From: Sphingomonas tagetis
Lineage (GTDB): Bacteria; Pseudomonadota; Alphaproteobacteria; Sphingomonadales; Sphingomonadaceae
Assembly: GCF_024211275.1 (NCBI RefSeq)
Contig: NZ_JAMLDX010000005.1
Location: 1-64,000, forward strand
Reading direction: 5' to 3'
Length of the DNA stretch: 64,000 nt
The notes under the pieces are model-generated. The model was not told the origin of the DNA and did no database searches. It saw nothing but the letters and a program-made list of their open reading frames with translations. Position numbers and translations under genes: made by a program. This document shows, one piece after another, positions 40,206-47,831 of the stretch. The first letter of the stretch is position 1, and the number at the start of each line of letters is the position of its first letter.

Positions 40206-40445
40206 ATGGGCGTTCGCGCGGCGCAGATGATGGGCCTGCGTCGAGCGGCGGAGATGGTCGGCCTCGACTATCTCGCGAACGGGATCGGCATCACGAAGCG
40301 CAACCTGCGGCAGAAGTTCGATGCAGAGCGGGGGCTCGATGCCGCCACGCTGAACCTCGCCGCCGATACGCTGGACGCGCGGGCGCATGCGCTGATGCTG
40401 CATGCGGAAAAGCTGCGCTGTTCCGCAAAAGGTGAACAGTCGTGA
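40206..40445 (+). CDS. Small helical DNA-binding-like protein
   Basis: A 79-residue protein: MGVRAAQMMGLRRAAEMVGL, then YLANGIGITKRNLRQKFDAE, which reads as a helix-turn-helix, and a helical end. ATG 40206 is preferred because it follows the leader repeat; ATG 40179 in the same frame would translate the leader itself (nine extra residues). Its place between the small and large terminase genes suggests a packaging or late regulatory role. No family recognised. Confidence 0.55.
   Translation: MGVRAAQMMGLRRAAEMVGLDYLANGIGITKRNLRQKFDAERGLDAATLNLAADTLDARAHALMLHAEKLRCSAKGEQS
40420..40440 (+). repeat. Leader repeat, copy 2
   Basis: GTTCCGCAAAAGGTGAACAG(T), one base before the terminase large subunit GTG. 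It provides an AAGGTGA ribosome binding site and contains TGTTC-N10-GAACA. Confidence 0.7.
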
Positions 40446-41980
40446 GCGGCGAAGCCTCGCTGATGGGGTTCGTCGGGCCGCGCGCGGAGGGGTTCGTCAA
40501 CGACTGGCGCTTCATCACCGGGATCATGGGGCCGTATGGCTCGGCCAAGACGACGAGCTGCATCCGCAAGATCGTGGCGTCGGCGCTGATGCAGAATCCC
40601 GGCCCCGATGGGGTGCGGCGGGTGCGCTGGTGCGTGGTGCGCGACACCTATGCCCAGCTTGAGACGAACGTGCTCAAGAGCTGGTTCACGTGGTTCCCGC
40701 AGACCAAGGCCAACTGGAACGGCAACCGCAACGAGTTTTTCGAAGAGTTCGATGTGATGCTGCCCGATGGCAAGGCAGCGCGCGTGTCGATCGAGGTCAT
40801 CTTTCGCGCGATGGGCGACCGCAAGGCCGAGGACGTGCTCAAAGGGCTTGAGCTGACCGGGCTGTGGCTCAACGAAACCGACACGCTCGACATGAACGTG
40901 TTCCTGTTCGGCTGGCCGCGCACGGGCCGCTTTCCGTCCGCGAAGAATGGAGGGTGCCAGTGGCGCGGGGTGATCTGCGATTTCAACGCGCCCGACATCG
41001 ACAACTGGACCTATGATTTTCTCGTCCTCGAAAATGACGGGTTGAGCGACGAGCAGCGCGAGCATCTGCGCGGTGTGCTGGGGCCGCGCTTCGGCATCGG
41101 CTTCCACGAGCAACCCGGCGGCCTCGAACCCGACGCAGAGAATATCCACAATCTGCCGCCGGGCTATTACGAGGGTCTGGCGATGGCGTTCGCCAGCAAG
41201 CCGAACCATCTGCGCCGGTTCGTGCACAACAAGTTTGGGGCCGTGTCCGACGGGCAGCCGGTGTTCCCCGAGTTCAACCCCGATATCCATGTCGCGAAGG
41301 AGCGGATTCGGCTCGACCCCCGCTATCCGCTGCAAAGCTGCCTCGATGGCGGACGCACCCCCGCGCTGATCCCGTTCCAGTTCATCGAAAACCAGATGCG
41401 GCTGCTCGACGAGATCGTGATCTGGAACCCCGGCAAGAGCGACGAGCTGCAGCGTCTCGGGCCAAAGGCGTTCGCCGAGCTGTGCTGGGAGCATTTCGCG
41501 CAGCACTATCCGACCGCGCAGCTAGGCACGATGTTCTACGATCCGGCGATCGACTTCGGCCAGGACGACGAGGAAGAGGACTGGCTGCGCTTCTTCCGCA
41601 AGCTGTTCAAGGGCGCGAAGTTCCGCCCCGGCGGGCGCGATGGCAACCGGATCGAGCCGCGGCTTGAAAGCGTGCGCGGGCGGCTGACCAATGCGCCCGG
41701 CGGGCGGCCGGGCCTGATCGTCAGCCCCAACTGCCACACGGTCATTCGCGGCTTCACCAGCGGCTATGTCTATGAGCGGATCAAGCTGTCGAATGGCTCG
41801 GGCCGGTTCCGCGAGAAGCCGATCAAGAATGATTTCAGCCACCCGATGGACGCCGTTCAATACGGCTCGCTGGGCTGCGAGACGGTGGCCGACATCCTCA
41901 ACGATCTGACGGGACGTGCCCGTGCGCAGCAGGCGCGCGGCAAGGTGAAGCATGGTGGCTATGCGGGGGCGGGACGATGA
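40442..41980 (+). CDS. terL: Phage terminase large subunit
   Basis: A 512-residue protein. Walker A is GPYGSAKTT (30-38) and the acidic Walker B region is LELTGLWLNETDTL with Glu145. The nuclease-like C-terminal half includes QLGTMFYDPAIDFGQDDEEE. It drives ATP-dependent packaging of phage DNA into the prohead. GTG start with AAGGTGA upstream. Overlaps the next gene by four bases. Confidence 0.85.
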   Translation: MSGEASLMGFVGPRAEGFVNDWRFITGIMGPYGSAKTTSCIRKIVASALMQNPGPDGVRRVRWCVVRDTYAQLETNVLKSWFTWFPQTKANWNGNRNEFFEEFDVMLPDGKAARVSIEVIFRAMGDRKAEDVLKGLELTGLWLNETDTLDMNVFLFGWPRTGRFPSAKNGGCQWRGVICDFNAPDIDNWTYDFLVLENDGLSDEQREHLRGVLGPRFGIGFHEQPGGLEPDAENIHNLPPGYYEGLAMAFASKPNHLRRFVHNKFGAVSDGQPVFPEFNPDIHVAKERIRLDPRYPLQSCLDGGRTPALIPFQFIENQMRLLDEIVIWNPGKSDELQRLGPKAFAELCWEHFAQHYPTAQLGTMFYDPAIDFGQDDEEEDWLRFFRKLFKGAKFRPGGRDGNRIEPRLESVRGRLTNAPGGRPGLIVSPNCHTVIRGFTSGYVYERIKLSNGSGRFREKPIKNDFSHPMDAVQYGSLGCETVADILNDLTGRARAQQARGKVKHGGYAGAGR

Positions 41981-42210
41981 CGGCTGTGGTTCCTTGGTTG
42001 GTGGGTGGCGTGGTCGGCGGGCTGTTGTCCGGCAAGAAAAAGACGCCCGAACAGCCCGCGCCGGTGCTCGCGCCGCGCCGCAACGAGGCGCGTGAGGCGG
42101 CGGACGCGCGCGACCGCGTGTCGAAGCGGCGCGGGGTGGCGGCGAACCTGATCCTTGGCGCGGGCGGCGCCGAAAGCACGACTGGCAGCAAGGGCACGCT
42201 GGGCAGCTGA
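41977..42210 (+). CDS. Small phage structural or assembly protein
   Basis: A 77-residue protein with a hydrophobic N-terminus (PWLVGGVVGGLLSG), a Pro-rich part and a Ser/Thr/Gly end (GGAESTTGSKGTLGS). Short proteins of this make-up follow the terminase in podovirus-like prophages. Function not known. Confidence 0.6.
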   Translation: MTAVVPWLVGGVVGGLLSGKKKTPEQPAPVLAPRRNEAREAADARDRVSKRRGVAANLILGAGGAESTTGSKGTLGS

Positions 42211-42246: not shown

Positions 42247-43209
42247 ATGGGTGGAACAACGAAGGTGGCGGCAACGGCGGGCGACGGGAAGTCTGGCGAG
42301 GCGCTACCGCCGCCCGTAGCCGTCGATCTGCGCGAACTGGCGGCGGCTGTGCTAGCGGATTCGATGTTCATCGGACTTGTGCGCGACGGTCTGCGCGAGA
42401 TCCTCGACGAACCGGTGGCGCGGCTCGAAGCGCAGCTCAAGATGTTCACTGACGCGATCGGCAGCGATCCCGAAACGATCGCCAAGGCGCTGTCCACCGA
42501 TGCCATTGCGGTGGAGGTTCTGCCGAACCTGCTGGCGCACGAAGATTTCGTCGCGGGCGTCGGCAATCTGATCACGGCGCGGCTCGCGACCGATGATTTC
42601 GCCGGGCAGCTCGTCGTGCCGATCAGCGAATATCTCGACAAGCAACTGCCCGAGCTGGTCGCGGCGGCGATGCCGGATACGCCGGAGAAGGCGGCGGCGC
42701 GGCGGGTCGAGGAAGCGCAGGCGGCGCAGGATCGGCAGCAGCGTGCCGACCGGCGCGCGGCGCGCGAGCGCGAGCGGGAAGCTGAAAAGGTCGCCGAGGA
42801 ACGCGCGGGCCGCAAGGCCGAGGCGCGCGACCGCCGCACGGCGCTGACCACCTTGCCCGAGGATGAAACCGAGTTGGCGCTGTACCGCGTCGCGGTCGAT
42901 CTGGCGACGGTCGCGCGCGGCAGCCTGCTGCTCGACGATGGCACGGTGCTGTCGATCGATTTCGCGCGCGACGTGGCGGCGAGCGAGCTGCGCCCCGTGG
43001 AGGGCAGCAACGGGCTGCTGCTCAAGGCGGCGGCGATCGACATCGGGCAGGGCATGCCGGAGCCGTTCCGCATCGAAGCGGCGCTGCTGGTGCTGGAATG
43101 CGGCGAGGGCCATCGCGTGCTGCGGTGCCCGATGCAGTCGCCGCTGACCGTGGGCGGCGGCGCGGTCGCGCAGCTGGGGGCCGAGAGCCTGCTGTTCCGC
43201 CCGATCTGA
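42247..43209 (+). CDS. Phage protein with coiled coil, unknown function
   Basis: A 320-residue protein. The middle (residues 150-205) is a strong coiled coil full of Arg, Glu and Ala (RADRRAAREREREAEKVAEE). The C-terminal part is beta-like (LLDDGTVLSIDFARDVAASE). GGAGG precedes the ATG by six bases. It sits between terminase and the Acb2/Tad1-like gene; a role in head assembly or lysogenic interaction cannot be told. Confidence 0.55.
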   Translation: MGGTTKVAATAGDGKSGEALPPPVAVDLRELAAAVLADSMFIGLVRDGLREILDEPVARLEAQLKMFTDAIGSDPETIAKALSTDAIAVEVLPNLLAHEDFVAGVGNLITARLATDDFAGQLVVPISEYLDKQLPELVAAAMPDTPEKAAARRVEEAQAAQDRQQRADRRAAREREREAEKVAEERAGRKAEARDRRTALTTLPEDETELALYRVAVDLATVARGSLLLDDGTVLSIDFARDVAASELRPVEGSNGLLLKAAAIDIGQGMPEPFRIEAALLVLECGEGHRVLRCPMQSPLTVGGGAVAQLGAESLLFRPI

Positions 43210-43249
43210 TCGAAATGGTGTGCGGAGTTAGGCCTTTCGCCGCGCGCCA

Positions 43250-43280
43250 GGGGGAGGGCGGGGGACAGCGGCCCTCCCCC
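43250..43280. other. Strong GC hairpin
   Basis: GGGGGAGGGC pairs perfectly with GCCCTCCCCC over an 11-base loop, without a T run. It lies between the coiled-coil gene and the Acb2/Tad1-like gene. Confidence 0.75.
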
Positions 43281-43332
43281 AGAAGCATCCGTGCCGCGCG
43301 GTTCTGCGGCGACACAACAGGAAGCAGGTAAC

Positions 43333-43737
43333 ATGCGAAAGCTGACAGACCATATCGTCAACCCGGCCAATGATCAGCTTGTGATCACGGCGCGCGACGA
43401 ACCCGGTGCGGGTGGCGCGCAGCACCTGTACATGATCGAGGGCTTCGACACTTCGACCAACCCGTCATGTCCGTTTGTCGAGCGCCACGGTGCGCCGGCC
43501 CAGCATGCGACCGTGCTTTTCCAGAACGGGCCGATCAACGAAGTCGGCGTCAATGGCGTGACGCAGGAAGCCCTGCTGGCGATCGTAGCGGACCGGCTGC
43601 GCTCGTTTCAGGCCGGGCCATATGCGTGCCGCGAAAACGCGCTCGCGCTGACCAAGATCGAGGAAGCGCAGCATTGGCTGCAGCAGCGCACCTTGGAGCG
43701 CATGCGTCGCGGCGTCGAGGGCACGCACGCCAAGTAA
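43333..43737 (+). CDS. Acb2/Tad1-like hairpin domain protein (anti-defence candidate)
   Basis: A 134-residue protein. The N-terminal 66 residues are beta-rich; residues 68-134 hold PINEVGVNGVTQEALLAIVA, RLRSFQAGPYACRENALALT and RTLERMRRGVEGTHAK. These residues match the two-helix domain shared, to my knowledge, by the anti-CBASS protein Acb2 and the Thoeris inhibitor Tad1, which sequester cyclic nucleotide signals. Direct binding is not shown by sequence. It is expressed as part of the structural operon, just before the portal gene. Confidence 0.65.
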   Translation: MRKLTDHIVNPANDQLVITARDEPGAGGAQHLYMIEGFDTSTNPSCPFVERHGAPAQHATVLFQNGPINEVGVNGVTQEALLAIVADRLRSFQAGPYACRENALALTKIEEAQHWLQQRTLERMRRGVEGTHAK

Positions 43738-43756
43738 TTGTCACGGGGGAAGGCAT

Positions 43757-45427
43757 ATGTTCGACGCCAAGGAAGCACTTGCAGCGCAGGGCCGAATGGA
43801 GCTGGGACGCTCCAATTTCGACCAGCAATGGCAGGAGGCGGCGGAGCTTTGCCTTCCCCGACAGGCCGATTTTCCGATTGGCGGGCAGCGCCAGCAGGGC
43901 GAGAACCGCAGCAACCAGATTTTCGACGAGCATGCGCAGCAGGCGGTCGATGACGGGGTGAGCGTGTTCGAGGGCTGGGTGAAGCCCAAGGGCCAAATCT
44001 GGCAGCTGCTGACGCCGCCCGACGACGAGCTGCTGCGCTATCAGCATGTCGCGGCGTGGTATGAGCGGATTTCGCATCGGCTGCACAAGCTGCGCGCGAG
44101 CGCCTTGAGCGGCTATGATCAGCAGAGCAACGAGTCCGTCTATTCGCTGATGGCGTTCGGCAACCAGGCCATGGAGGTCGAGCCGCGCCGCGATCCGGTG
44201 TCGAAGGCGATCGTCGGCCTGCGCTATCGCAGCGAGCATATCGGACGCGTGTATATCGAAACGGACTGGCAGGGGCTGCCGTCGCGGCGCCATGTCAAGT
44301 TCACGCTGACCGGGCCGCAGGCGCTGGAGCGGTTCGGACGCGCCGCGCTGGAGCGCGCGCCGCTGGTGCTCAAGGCGGCGCTGGCCAATGACGATCAGCA
44401 GCGCAGCAAGCCGTTCGAGTTTCTGCGCGTGCTCAAGCCGAACACCGCGATCGACAGCAACCGGCTGGACTGGCGCGGCAAGGTGTGGGTCAACGGGTTC
44501 CTGTCGATCGAGGACCGCAGCTTCGTCGAGGAAGGCGGCTATCGCTCGCCGCCGCTGATCTATTCGCGGTTCCGGCAGTCGCCGACGGAAGATTACGGGC
44601 GCGGGCCGGGCACGGACGTGTTGCCAGCGATCAAGGCTGCGCAGGCGGTGATGATCGACGTGATGGCCGCCGCCGAGCTGGGGCTGCGTCCGCCGCTGGG
44701 CGCGCCCGATGACGCGACCGACATGCTGATCAACTATATCGCGGCCGAGATCACCTATGGCGCGGTCGATCGGCGCGGCAATCAGCTGGTAAAGCCGCTG
44801 TTCGAGGTCGGCGAAATGCAGGGCGCGCTGGCGGTGATGGAGATCATCCATCGCGTCATCGACCGCGCATGCTTCCGCCACCTGCTGATGGTCAATCAGG
44901 ACATGAAGAGCCATGTGACCGACAGCCAGATCTACGAGCGGTTGCAGGAAAAGGGCGTGCTGCTGTCGCCGATGGGCCGGCAGGAAACCGAGTGGTTCAC
45001 GCCGATGCTGGACCGCGAAATCGACATCATGGACATGATGGGCGAGTTCGACGACATGCCCGGCGAAGTGATCGAGGCCGGCGGGCTGTTCGGCACCGAA
45101 TATGACAACCCGCTCAACCGCGCGCTGAAAGCGGCGCAGGCAGGCGGCTATTTCCGCGCGCTCGACAAGGTTGTGGCTGTTGCGCAGTATGACCGCACCG
45201 CGCTCGACGCGTTCCTCGAAGAATATCCGATCGCCAAGGCGGTGCTGGGCATCGGCAAGATCGAGGGCATCCCGGCAAGCTGGCGCGCGACCGCCGCCGA
45301 GAAGCGCGCCGCAGCGGCGGCACGCGAGCAGCAGCAGCAGCTGCAGCAGATCCAGCAGCTGGGCGAATCGCTCGAGCCGGTGACGCGCGTCGCGGGCGAA
45401 TTGTCGGGCGCGCTCGATGCCGCATGA
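43757..45427 (+). CDS. Podovirus head-to-tail connecting (portal) protein
   Basis: A 556-residue protein with the pattern of the bacteriophage head-to-tail connecting family: WQEAAELCLPRQADF, NQIFDEHAQQAVDD, YSLMAFGNQAMEVEPRRDP, YGRGPGTDVLPAIKAAQAVM. The C-terminus is Gln-rich and coiled. The portal forms the ring through which DNA enters and leaves the capsid, typical of T7-like podoviruses. GGGGGAAGG precedes the ATG. Confidence 0.85.
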   Translation: MFDAKEALAAQGRMELGRSNFDQQWQEAAELCLPRQADFPIGGQRQQGENRSNQIFDEHAQQAVDDGVSVFEGWVKPKGQIWQLLTPPDDELLRYQHVAAWYERISHRLHKLRASALSGYDQQSNESVYSLMAFGNQAMEVEPRRDPVSKAIVGLRYRSEHIGRVYIETDWQGLPSRRHVKFTLTGPQALERFGRAALERAPLVLKAALANDDQQRSKPFEFLRVLKPNTAIDSNRLDWRGKVWVNGFLSIEDRSFVEEGGYRSPPLIYSRFRQSPTEDYGRGPGTDVLPAIKAAQAVMIDVMAAAELGLRPPLGAPDDATDMLINYIAAEITYGAVDRRGNQLVKPLFEVGEMQGALAVMEIIHRVIDRACFRHLLMVNQDMKSHVTDSQIYERLQEKGVLLSPMGRQETEWFTPMLDREIDIMDMMGEFDDMPGEVIEAGGLFGTEYDNPLNRALKAAQAGGYFRALDKVVAVAQYDRTALDAFLEEYPIAKAVLGIGKIEGIPASWRATAAEKRAAAAAREQQQQLQQIQQLGESLEPVTRVAGELSGALDAA

Positions 45428-46862: not shown

Positions 46863-47831
46863 ATGCCTGAATGGCAAGACACGATGGCGACGACTGCTTT
46901 CGAGAAGGCAGTCGATTTTCAGCTGAACGAACTCGGCGTCGAGTTCGAGGGTATGTGCGATTTCAAGGGCGGCATGACGGACGAAAAGGTCCAGATCACC
47001 GACCGGTTCAGCGACCTGCCCTATGACGAAGTCGAGGACCGGCTGGGCAAGACCGACCTGCCCGAGTCCGAAGTCGAGCGGCGCTATATCCACATGCCGA
47101 ACCGGCTGCGCACCGGCACGTATCTCGATCCCGACGATCAGATGGCGACGCAGATTCCGCTGGCAAGTCCGCTGGCGATCGGCGTTGCGCGGGGGATTAA
47201 GATCGCGCGCAAGGATCGCTTCCTGCTCGGCTTCCACGGCAACGCCTATACCGGCAAGACCGGCACCACGGCAGTGCCGTTCAAGTCGGCCAACGTGTTC
47301 GCCGCGGACTATGGCGAGACGGCGACGCAGTATAAGGGGCTCACGCTCAAGAAGCTGCGCGCGCTGCGCAAGAAGGCACGGCAGCTGCTGATCGATCCCA
47401 GGGATCCGAGCAACAAGCTGCACATGGGCATCACGGCGGAAGAGATCGAGGACCTGCTCGAAATCGACCAGTATATCAGCCGCGATTACAACCCGGACAG
47501 CCAGACCCGCAAGCCGATGTCGGAAGGCGCCAAGCAGGCGCTGCAGGACGGCGAGCCGACCGACTTCCTGGGCATCCACTTCGTGCCGATGGAATTCACC
47601 AATGCCCGCGCGTTCCCGAAGTCGGCGGCGCTGGGCCTCAACGGCAGTGGTCATCGCCGCTGCCCGGTGTGGATTCCCAAGGGCATGTCGGGCCGCCAGT
47701 GGCAGGGCATCGAGACGCACCGCGACCAGCGGCCGGACATGAACCATGCCTGGCAGTTCACCGCCTACACGAAGCTCGCTTACTCGCGGAACAACGAGGA
47801 TCTGGCGTTCATCGTCGAGTGTGCGGACTGA
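46863..47831 (+). CDS. Major capsid protein
   Basis: A 322-residue protein: TTAFEKAVDFQLNELGVEFE at the start and GYNRNN-free core with GHRRCPVWIPKGMSGRQWQ and NEDLAFIVECAD at the end. Length, position after the scaffold and the start pattern fit the phage capsid family of podovirus-like prophages. GAGCGGAGGTTTCG precedes the ATG, a strong ribosome binding site. Flanked by hairpins on both sides. Confidence 0.8.
   Translation: MPEWQDTMATTAFEKAVDFQLNELGVEFEGMCDFKGGMTDEKVQITDRFSDLPYDEVEDRLGKTDLPESEVERRYIHMPNRLRTGTYLDPDDQMATQIPLASPLAIGVARGIKIARKDRFLLGFHGNAYTGKTGTTAVPFKSANVFAADYGETATQYKGLTLKKLRALRKKARQLLIDPRDPSNKLHMGITAEEIEDLLEIDQYISRDYNPDSQTRKPMSEGAKQALQDGEPTDFLGIHFVPMEFTNARAFPKSAALGLNGSGHRRCPVWIPKGMSGRQWQGIETHRDQRPDMNHAWQFTAYTKLAYSRNNEDLAFIVECAD

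Follow-up and report, generated by a model that had tools for sequence, protein, structure and literature searches.

Proteins of the Tad1 family form hexamers (trimers of dimers). In the excerpt of a review considered here, they are described as trapping gcADPR, cyclic dinucleotides and cyclic trinucleotides and as acting against both Thoeris and CBASS (PMC12043709). Such a protein can come at a cost, since, of four Tad1 alleles in the excerpted report on Panoptes, two inhibited the formation of colonies when the Panoptes operon was present (PMC12657218). Judged by titles and the beginnings of abstracts, our literature search brought up no paper on tad1 among structural genes, and none covering both Acb3 and CBASS was found.

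The stretch analysed here (the window; 64,000 nucleotides of a Sphingomonas tagetis contig) holds a prophage with successive plus-strand genes for terminase, portal, major head protein, tail proteins and internal virion proteins. The segment from 24.6 to 31.5 kb encodes an integrase-like protein (its Pfam match falls just short of the cut-off), a DnaG-type primase and a helix-turn-helix regulator, and by gene content we read the prophage as a temperate phage of the T7-like podovirus type. The tad1 homologue lies between the terminase large subunit and the portal, where a sequence-only reading of the window had placed it, and two genes separate it from the terminase. The features of this region are as follows.

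40442-41980, plus strand: terminase large subunit (phrog_2, 3.9e-14)
41986-42210, plus strand: small backbone gene o77, present in 64 of 66 terminase-portal intervals
42247-43209, plus strand: backbone gene o320, whose C-terminal part is related to o230 (~230 aa), present in 45 of 66 intervals
43216-43249 and 43250-43280, plus strand: two predicted stem-loops after o320, a backbone element and the left edge of the exchange slot
43282-43744, no strand assigned: exchanged segment, slot B (blastn breakpoints), with tad1 in the window, acb3 in the related locus L121 and no gene in locus L126
43333-43737, plus strand: tad1 homologue, 134 aa, with a beta-rich N-terminal part and a C-terminal two-helix hairpin (helices 78-94 and 100-125)
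43757-45427, plus strand: portal (head-tail adaptor; phrog_332, 4.7e-75), with the slot's right edge in its start region
46863-47831, plus strand: major head protein (phrog_3437, 1.3e-19)

The family formed by o320 and o230, for which no Pfam or PHROGs family was found, combines a middle part resembling a coiled coil with a conserved C-terminal part that contains GGG.

The open reading frame of the tad1 homologue was recovered as described in the sequence-only reading, with all three of the motifs quoted there. An upstream GTG at 43291 is an unlikely start, because in an alignment of 69 relatives the first column is Met in 49 rows and another 15 rows start one residue into the match. A phmmer search of the window protein against all PDB chain sequences matched CmTad1 (4.8e-21, aligned residues 61-131), phiKZ gp184 (5.5e-19, residues 25-133) and the CbTad1 chains (1.1e-17 to 1.6e-17, residues 24-134), with the next match following at E 0.24; the homology to characterised Tad1 extends beyond the hairpin alone. 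Searching the PDB with a profile of the 69 relatives returned seven sequences, every one of them CbTad1, CmTad1 or gp184. The Pfam hairpin family (PF24729, Acb2_Tad1_hairpin) gave a mixed answer for the window protein, with an E-value of 5.9e-5 that speaks for membership and a score of 23.6 bits that falls short of the gathering score of 27; 35 of the 69 relatives matched it at E <= 0.01. The best PHROGs match was phrog_2428 (3e-34), the families matched there being ones without annotated function, and a search against NCBIfam returned nothing up to E 10. Lambda CIII, a Pfam match at E 0.21, was set aside as an identity.

An AlphaFold2 model of the window protein (69 sequences, single chain; pLDDT 92.6, pTM 0.82) shows an N-terminal beta part of four strands (residues 2-4, 17-20, 32-36 and 58-63) followed by the two long helices of the hairpin. 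Foldseek with this model returned 20 matches under E 0.001, all of them CbTad1 or CmTad1. The best structural alignments were to gcADPR-bound CbTad1 (Z 12.0 over 119-121 residues, at an rmsd of 3.6-4.2, which is not small), and the entries ranking below Tad1 were mostly short helical hairpins. The beta-rich first half, which the sequence-only reading had regarded as the protein's own, corresponds to the N-terminal domain of Tad1. Judged from sequence and model, the protein is Tad1 rather than Acb2, because the model has N-terminal beta strands and Acb2 is all-helical. The proposed Acb2/Tad1 identity is therefore upheld at the level of the family, by the solved Tad1 chains matched and by the predicted fold with its two-helix hairpin, and narrows to Tad1, with Acb2 set aside.

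Within the hairpin, F92, R119 and R123 are identical in all 69 aligned rows and N102 in 68 of them (alignment A1, comprising the window protein, P0001, and 68 of 80 viral-contig loci; the 12 omitted are likely near copies, as judged from the listing). We take the equivalents of these four residues to be ligand-site residues of CbTad1. The tad1 homologue is under purifying selection, with dN/dS values of 0.05-0.16 in five of six pairs with relatives; the sixth pair, with locus L002, is saturated at synonymous sites. The Tad1 proteins of L002 and the window are 88% identical, as against 32% for terminase and 27% for portal. Given the synonymous saturation (pS 0.78), recent transfer was rejected as the cause of this identity, which at least in part reflects slow protein evolution.

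Relatives of the window protein occur in 141 of 50,697 phage records. In Agrobacterium phages OLIVR5 and OLIVR6 the Tad1 homologue is called an ABC transporter ATPase (three records), an apparent misannotation; others among the matches listed are annotated as hypothetical or putative structural protein. A relative is encoded by 148 of 155 candidate stretches from viral contigs (the best 80 of the 148 were kept) and by 35 of 95 from genome contigs, including the Sphingomonas sp. Leaf32 locus L086, which agrees with L002 in its match and gene order. Across the host order, tad1 was found in one of 396 sampled genomes, the window's own, and Acb3 in none of the 396, in a search without a positive control.

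Outside this podovirus lineage, too, tad1 adjoins head genes in several loci. In L061 the order is terminase, tad1, an 85-aa protein, a sigma factor and portal; in L072 tad1 stands between portal (head-tail adaptor) and head assembly; in L038 a 323-aa protein separates portal from tad1; in L003 tad1 is followed by a 183-aa protein and the major head protein; and in L044 it begins 76 bases after the terminase. Taking 50 of the 80 loci, we recognised a terminase in 24 records. Of these, 4 have tad1 no more than 8 kb downstream of the terminase and 9 no more than 8 kb upstream, and the remaining 11 have it on the opposite strand. Most of the surveyed genes lie outside head modules. A head-gene position of tad1 is recurrent, not general. 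Among 117 immediate neighbours tallied from 151 listed (minus-strand and other, mostly short, ones were omitted by hand), recombination exonucleases, primases and terminases were the commonest named families, with few each; the list covers loci where a simple gene caller found tad1 (105 of 121 sources), minus near copies and named phages. In one locus (L077:88-2342) acb3 precedes tad1 by ~1.1 kb on the same strand, and the two may form a counter-defence cluster. Burkholderia phage FLC9 (L168:3377-4393) encodes a 338-aa protein whose C-terminal end carries the Tad1 match, and an N-terminal extension is common to this and phiKZ gp184, both jumbo-phage proteins.

To compare the region across relatives of this prophage, we collected 66 terminase-portal intervals from 109 loci, distinct by an exact 500-base core and still including close relatives. 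Presence of o230 was counted at E <= 0.001, a threshold missed by the L121 copy of o320, which is 63% identical to the window's. Seven of the 66 intervals carry a counter-signalling homologue, namely Tad1 in three (the window, L002 and L007), Tad2 in three (L203, L193 and L191) and Acb3 in one (L121). Neither the terminase nor the portal search had supplied the intervals of the window and L002, and that of L007 came in through both. The L191 and L193 homologues were found with a Tad2 profile made from all three interval proteins, and the L121 protein was likewise part of the Acb3 profile, so these profiles match their own members by construction; independent matches were obtained for the Tad2 homologue of L203 and the Acb3 homologue of L121.

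Two insertion points can be distinguished, slot A between o77 and o230 and slot B between o320/o230 and portal. Slot B is delimited by comparison of the window with L121, where terminase and portal are 92% and 90% identical. Blastn homology runs to 43281 and resumes at 43745 (86.2% over 1719 bases), and the 463 bases between the breakpoints correspond to tad1 in the window and are replaced by acb3 at that place in L121. In L126 (portal 69% identical), homology reaches 43209, the end of o320, and likewise resumes at 43745; a stem-loop is followed there by the portal start, with no gene in between. The right-hand breakpoint, in the portal start region, is common to both comparisons. The Acb3 homologue of L121 (L121:7155-7976) comprises 273 aa from its ATG and matches Pfam PF25187 at 8.9e-73; no sequence relatives of Acb3 were found in the PDB, and 41 Acb3-encoding loci were found in viral contigs.

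For slot A, the corresponding comparison is between L203 and L128, which are 94-95% identical on both sides of tad2. In L203 the gene lies between two copies of a 17-base exact direct repeat, each including ribosome-binding site and start codon. Its product (162 aa, encoded 283-772 bases after the terminase) has ~70 extra N-terminal residues ahead of the Tad2 match at 73-162, and against the PDB it matched ModTad2 (1.4e-21) and SPO1 Gp34.65 (Tad2; 4.3e-14), as well as chains named AcrIIA7. The gene tad1 occupies slot A in L002 and L007 but slot B in the window, yet the three Tad1 proteins group together with support (96/86, rough values from an unsettled bootstrap on few columns); tad1 has therefore moved within the interval or been gained there repeatedly.

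The sequence-only reading had based late expression partly on a strong hairpin ahead of the gene. This part did not hold: given its composition, the hairpin has an ordinary stability (z -1.49, matched by 11 of 200 shuffled sequences), and it is no evidence for timing. Stem-loops follow the same upstream gene in L121, where acb3 comes next, and in L126, where no gene does, and the hairpin is therefore an element of the phage backbone and was rejected as a tad1-specific feature. Neither a sigma-70-type promoter nor a T-tailed terminator turned up in simple scans of 43000-43800. Production of Tad1 is nonetheless probably late, together with portal and capsid, as judged from its position in an unbroken plus-strand run of structural genes.

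How strongly the interval is associated with counter-signalling genes was assessed with the Tad1, Tad2 and Acb3 profiles, which gave 14 matches in the 66 loci, seven of them in the interval, which makes up 9% of the bases. The seven others are, upstream, tad1 in L019, acb3 in L132, L128 and L129, and tad2 in L211 and L212, and, downstream, tad2 in L199. When the window, L002, L007 and L019, which came from the Tad1 search, are left out, 4 of 10 matches lie in the interval (binomial P 0.009), and merging L191 with L193 and L128 with L129 by hand as near relatives leaves 3 of 8 (P 0.029). The enrichment is modest and only suggestive, because the choice of families was post hoc (Tad2 and Acb3 were chosen after being seen there), the phages are related and the flanks are short.

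A generally permissive cargo site, at which counter-signalling genes have landed by coincidence, has a chance not far short of even. Extra open reading frames also occur in the intervals of L131, L132, L152, L155, L177 and L228, and the modest, post hoc enrichment just described fits such a site, but the presence of three unrelated anti-second-messenger families within one interval of ~1-2 kb, at two insertion points, argues against coincidence. A further reading, which we rate as less likely than not, is that in this podovirus lineage the interval is a dedicated exchange site for Tad1, Tad2 and Acb3 genes, swapped at gene starts. Its extra genes would then be new counter-defence genes, and its sponges would either appear in step with the capsid and portal that trigger the defence or be packaged alongside them. 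Extra reading frames between o230 and portal are found in L132 (109 aa), L007 (152 aa; L007:11178-11636), L131 (97 aa), L177 (64 aa) and L228 (110 aa), and are candidate counter-defence genes. The PDB held no relatives of the 109-aa protein, and the best match of the 152-aa protein was at E 0.57.

For the window itself, our favoured reading, taken with good confidence, is a second-messenger sponge of the Tad1 family whose gene occupies an exchangeable slot among the head genes, between the gene at 42247-43209 and portal; the protein is probably made with portal and capsid. By analogy with the family, the protein as a hexamer would bind gcADPR (Thoeris) and cyclic di- and trinucleotides (CBASS), and signals trapped in this way, without cleavage, would leave the suicide effectors switched off. 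From its place in the head-gene run it would be made together with portal and capsid. In the excerpts of the two reports considered here, Thoeris can be triggered by major capsid proteins (PMC12578639) and a TIR NADase is triggered by portal (PMC12847820). Because capsid and portal proteins trigger TIR-type defences, a sponge made alongside them may already be in place when the signal arises. The window's own genome gave no match to the SMODS (CBASS cyclase) or ThsB_TIR models of Pfam, so that neither model points to a target in the present host. In the host genus, SMODS was above the cut-off in 15 of 121 genomes and ThsB_TIR in 38 of 121, compared with 2 and 1 of 14 control genomes; many of the ThsB_TIR matches in the genus lie within frames of more than 500 aa and need not be Thoeris.

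Three other readings of the protein were weighed against this sponge made during head production. The sponge might travel inside the head and enter the cell with the DNA, and thus be active from the first moment, like gp184 of phiKZ. This protein belongs to the same family (it is identical to PHIKZ184), is annotated as a 'structural protein' and, according to excerpted sources, was validated as injected (PMC10449902; the Tad1 statement is in PMC13282480), and the tad1 gene of the window likewise stands among head genes. Gene position is no proof of packaging, however, the extra N-terminal part of gp184 (whose match covers residues 114-226 of 230) is missing from the 134-aa window protein, and the legend of the phiKZ injection blot gives n = 1 (PMC10449902, as excerpted). 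We consider such loading unlikely.

Very unlikely, in our estimate, is a drift in ligand range that would leave this Tad1 relative blocking some nucleotide signal other than those of Thoeris and CBASS. Sponges of the Tad1 family do vary in ligand range, according to the excerpted review (PMC12043709), and with 33 of 60 aligned hairpin residues identical to CbTad1, differences remain; the strong conservation of the hairpin and the close structural match to gcADPR-bound CbTad1 speak against drift. Hardly credible is a head-assembly or other virion protein that has the Tad1 fold and no anti-defence role, as might be suggested by its place between terminase and portal and by the head genes adjoining tad1 in several other phages, because tad1 is absent from L121 and L126, and thus dispensable for assembly, and because conservation extends to the hairpin residues that the protein has in common with ligand-binding Tad1.

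The sponge reading thus places the window protein beside known systems as follows. It resembles CbTad1 and CmTad1 (PDB 7uav, 7uaw, 8smd, 8kbe and 8kbf; 8kbb-8kbd) in length class and in the combination of a beta part with a two-helix hairpin, at 36-39% identity in structural alignments; in the window the gene lies between terminase and portal. From the jumbo-phage protein gp184, of 230 aa with an extra N-terminal part and injected according to the excerpted report (PMC10449902), it differs in its length of 134 aa. With Acb2 (T4 Vs.4 and others) it has the hairpin in common, and the alignment to Vs.4 with cGAMP (Z 6.4, 60 residues) falls in the range of unrelated helical hairpins; Acb2 is all-helical in the excerpted review (PMC12043709), whereas the window protein has an N-terminal beta part in the model. 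Tad2 and Acb3 are other families, whose homologues occupy the same terminase-portal interval in related phages. The slot is thereby a bounded place with homologues of three unrelated inhibitor families, and its other genes are therefore ranked counter-defence candidates. It also makes a question of timing testable, namely whether the particles that raise the alarm by their capsid and portal are produced alongside the sponges or have them loaded inside. The protein is a further member of the known Tad1 family, and the less expected part is its place and the exchange of tad1, acb3 and an empty site at that place.
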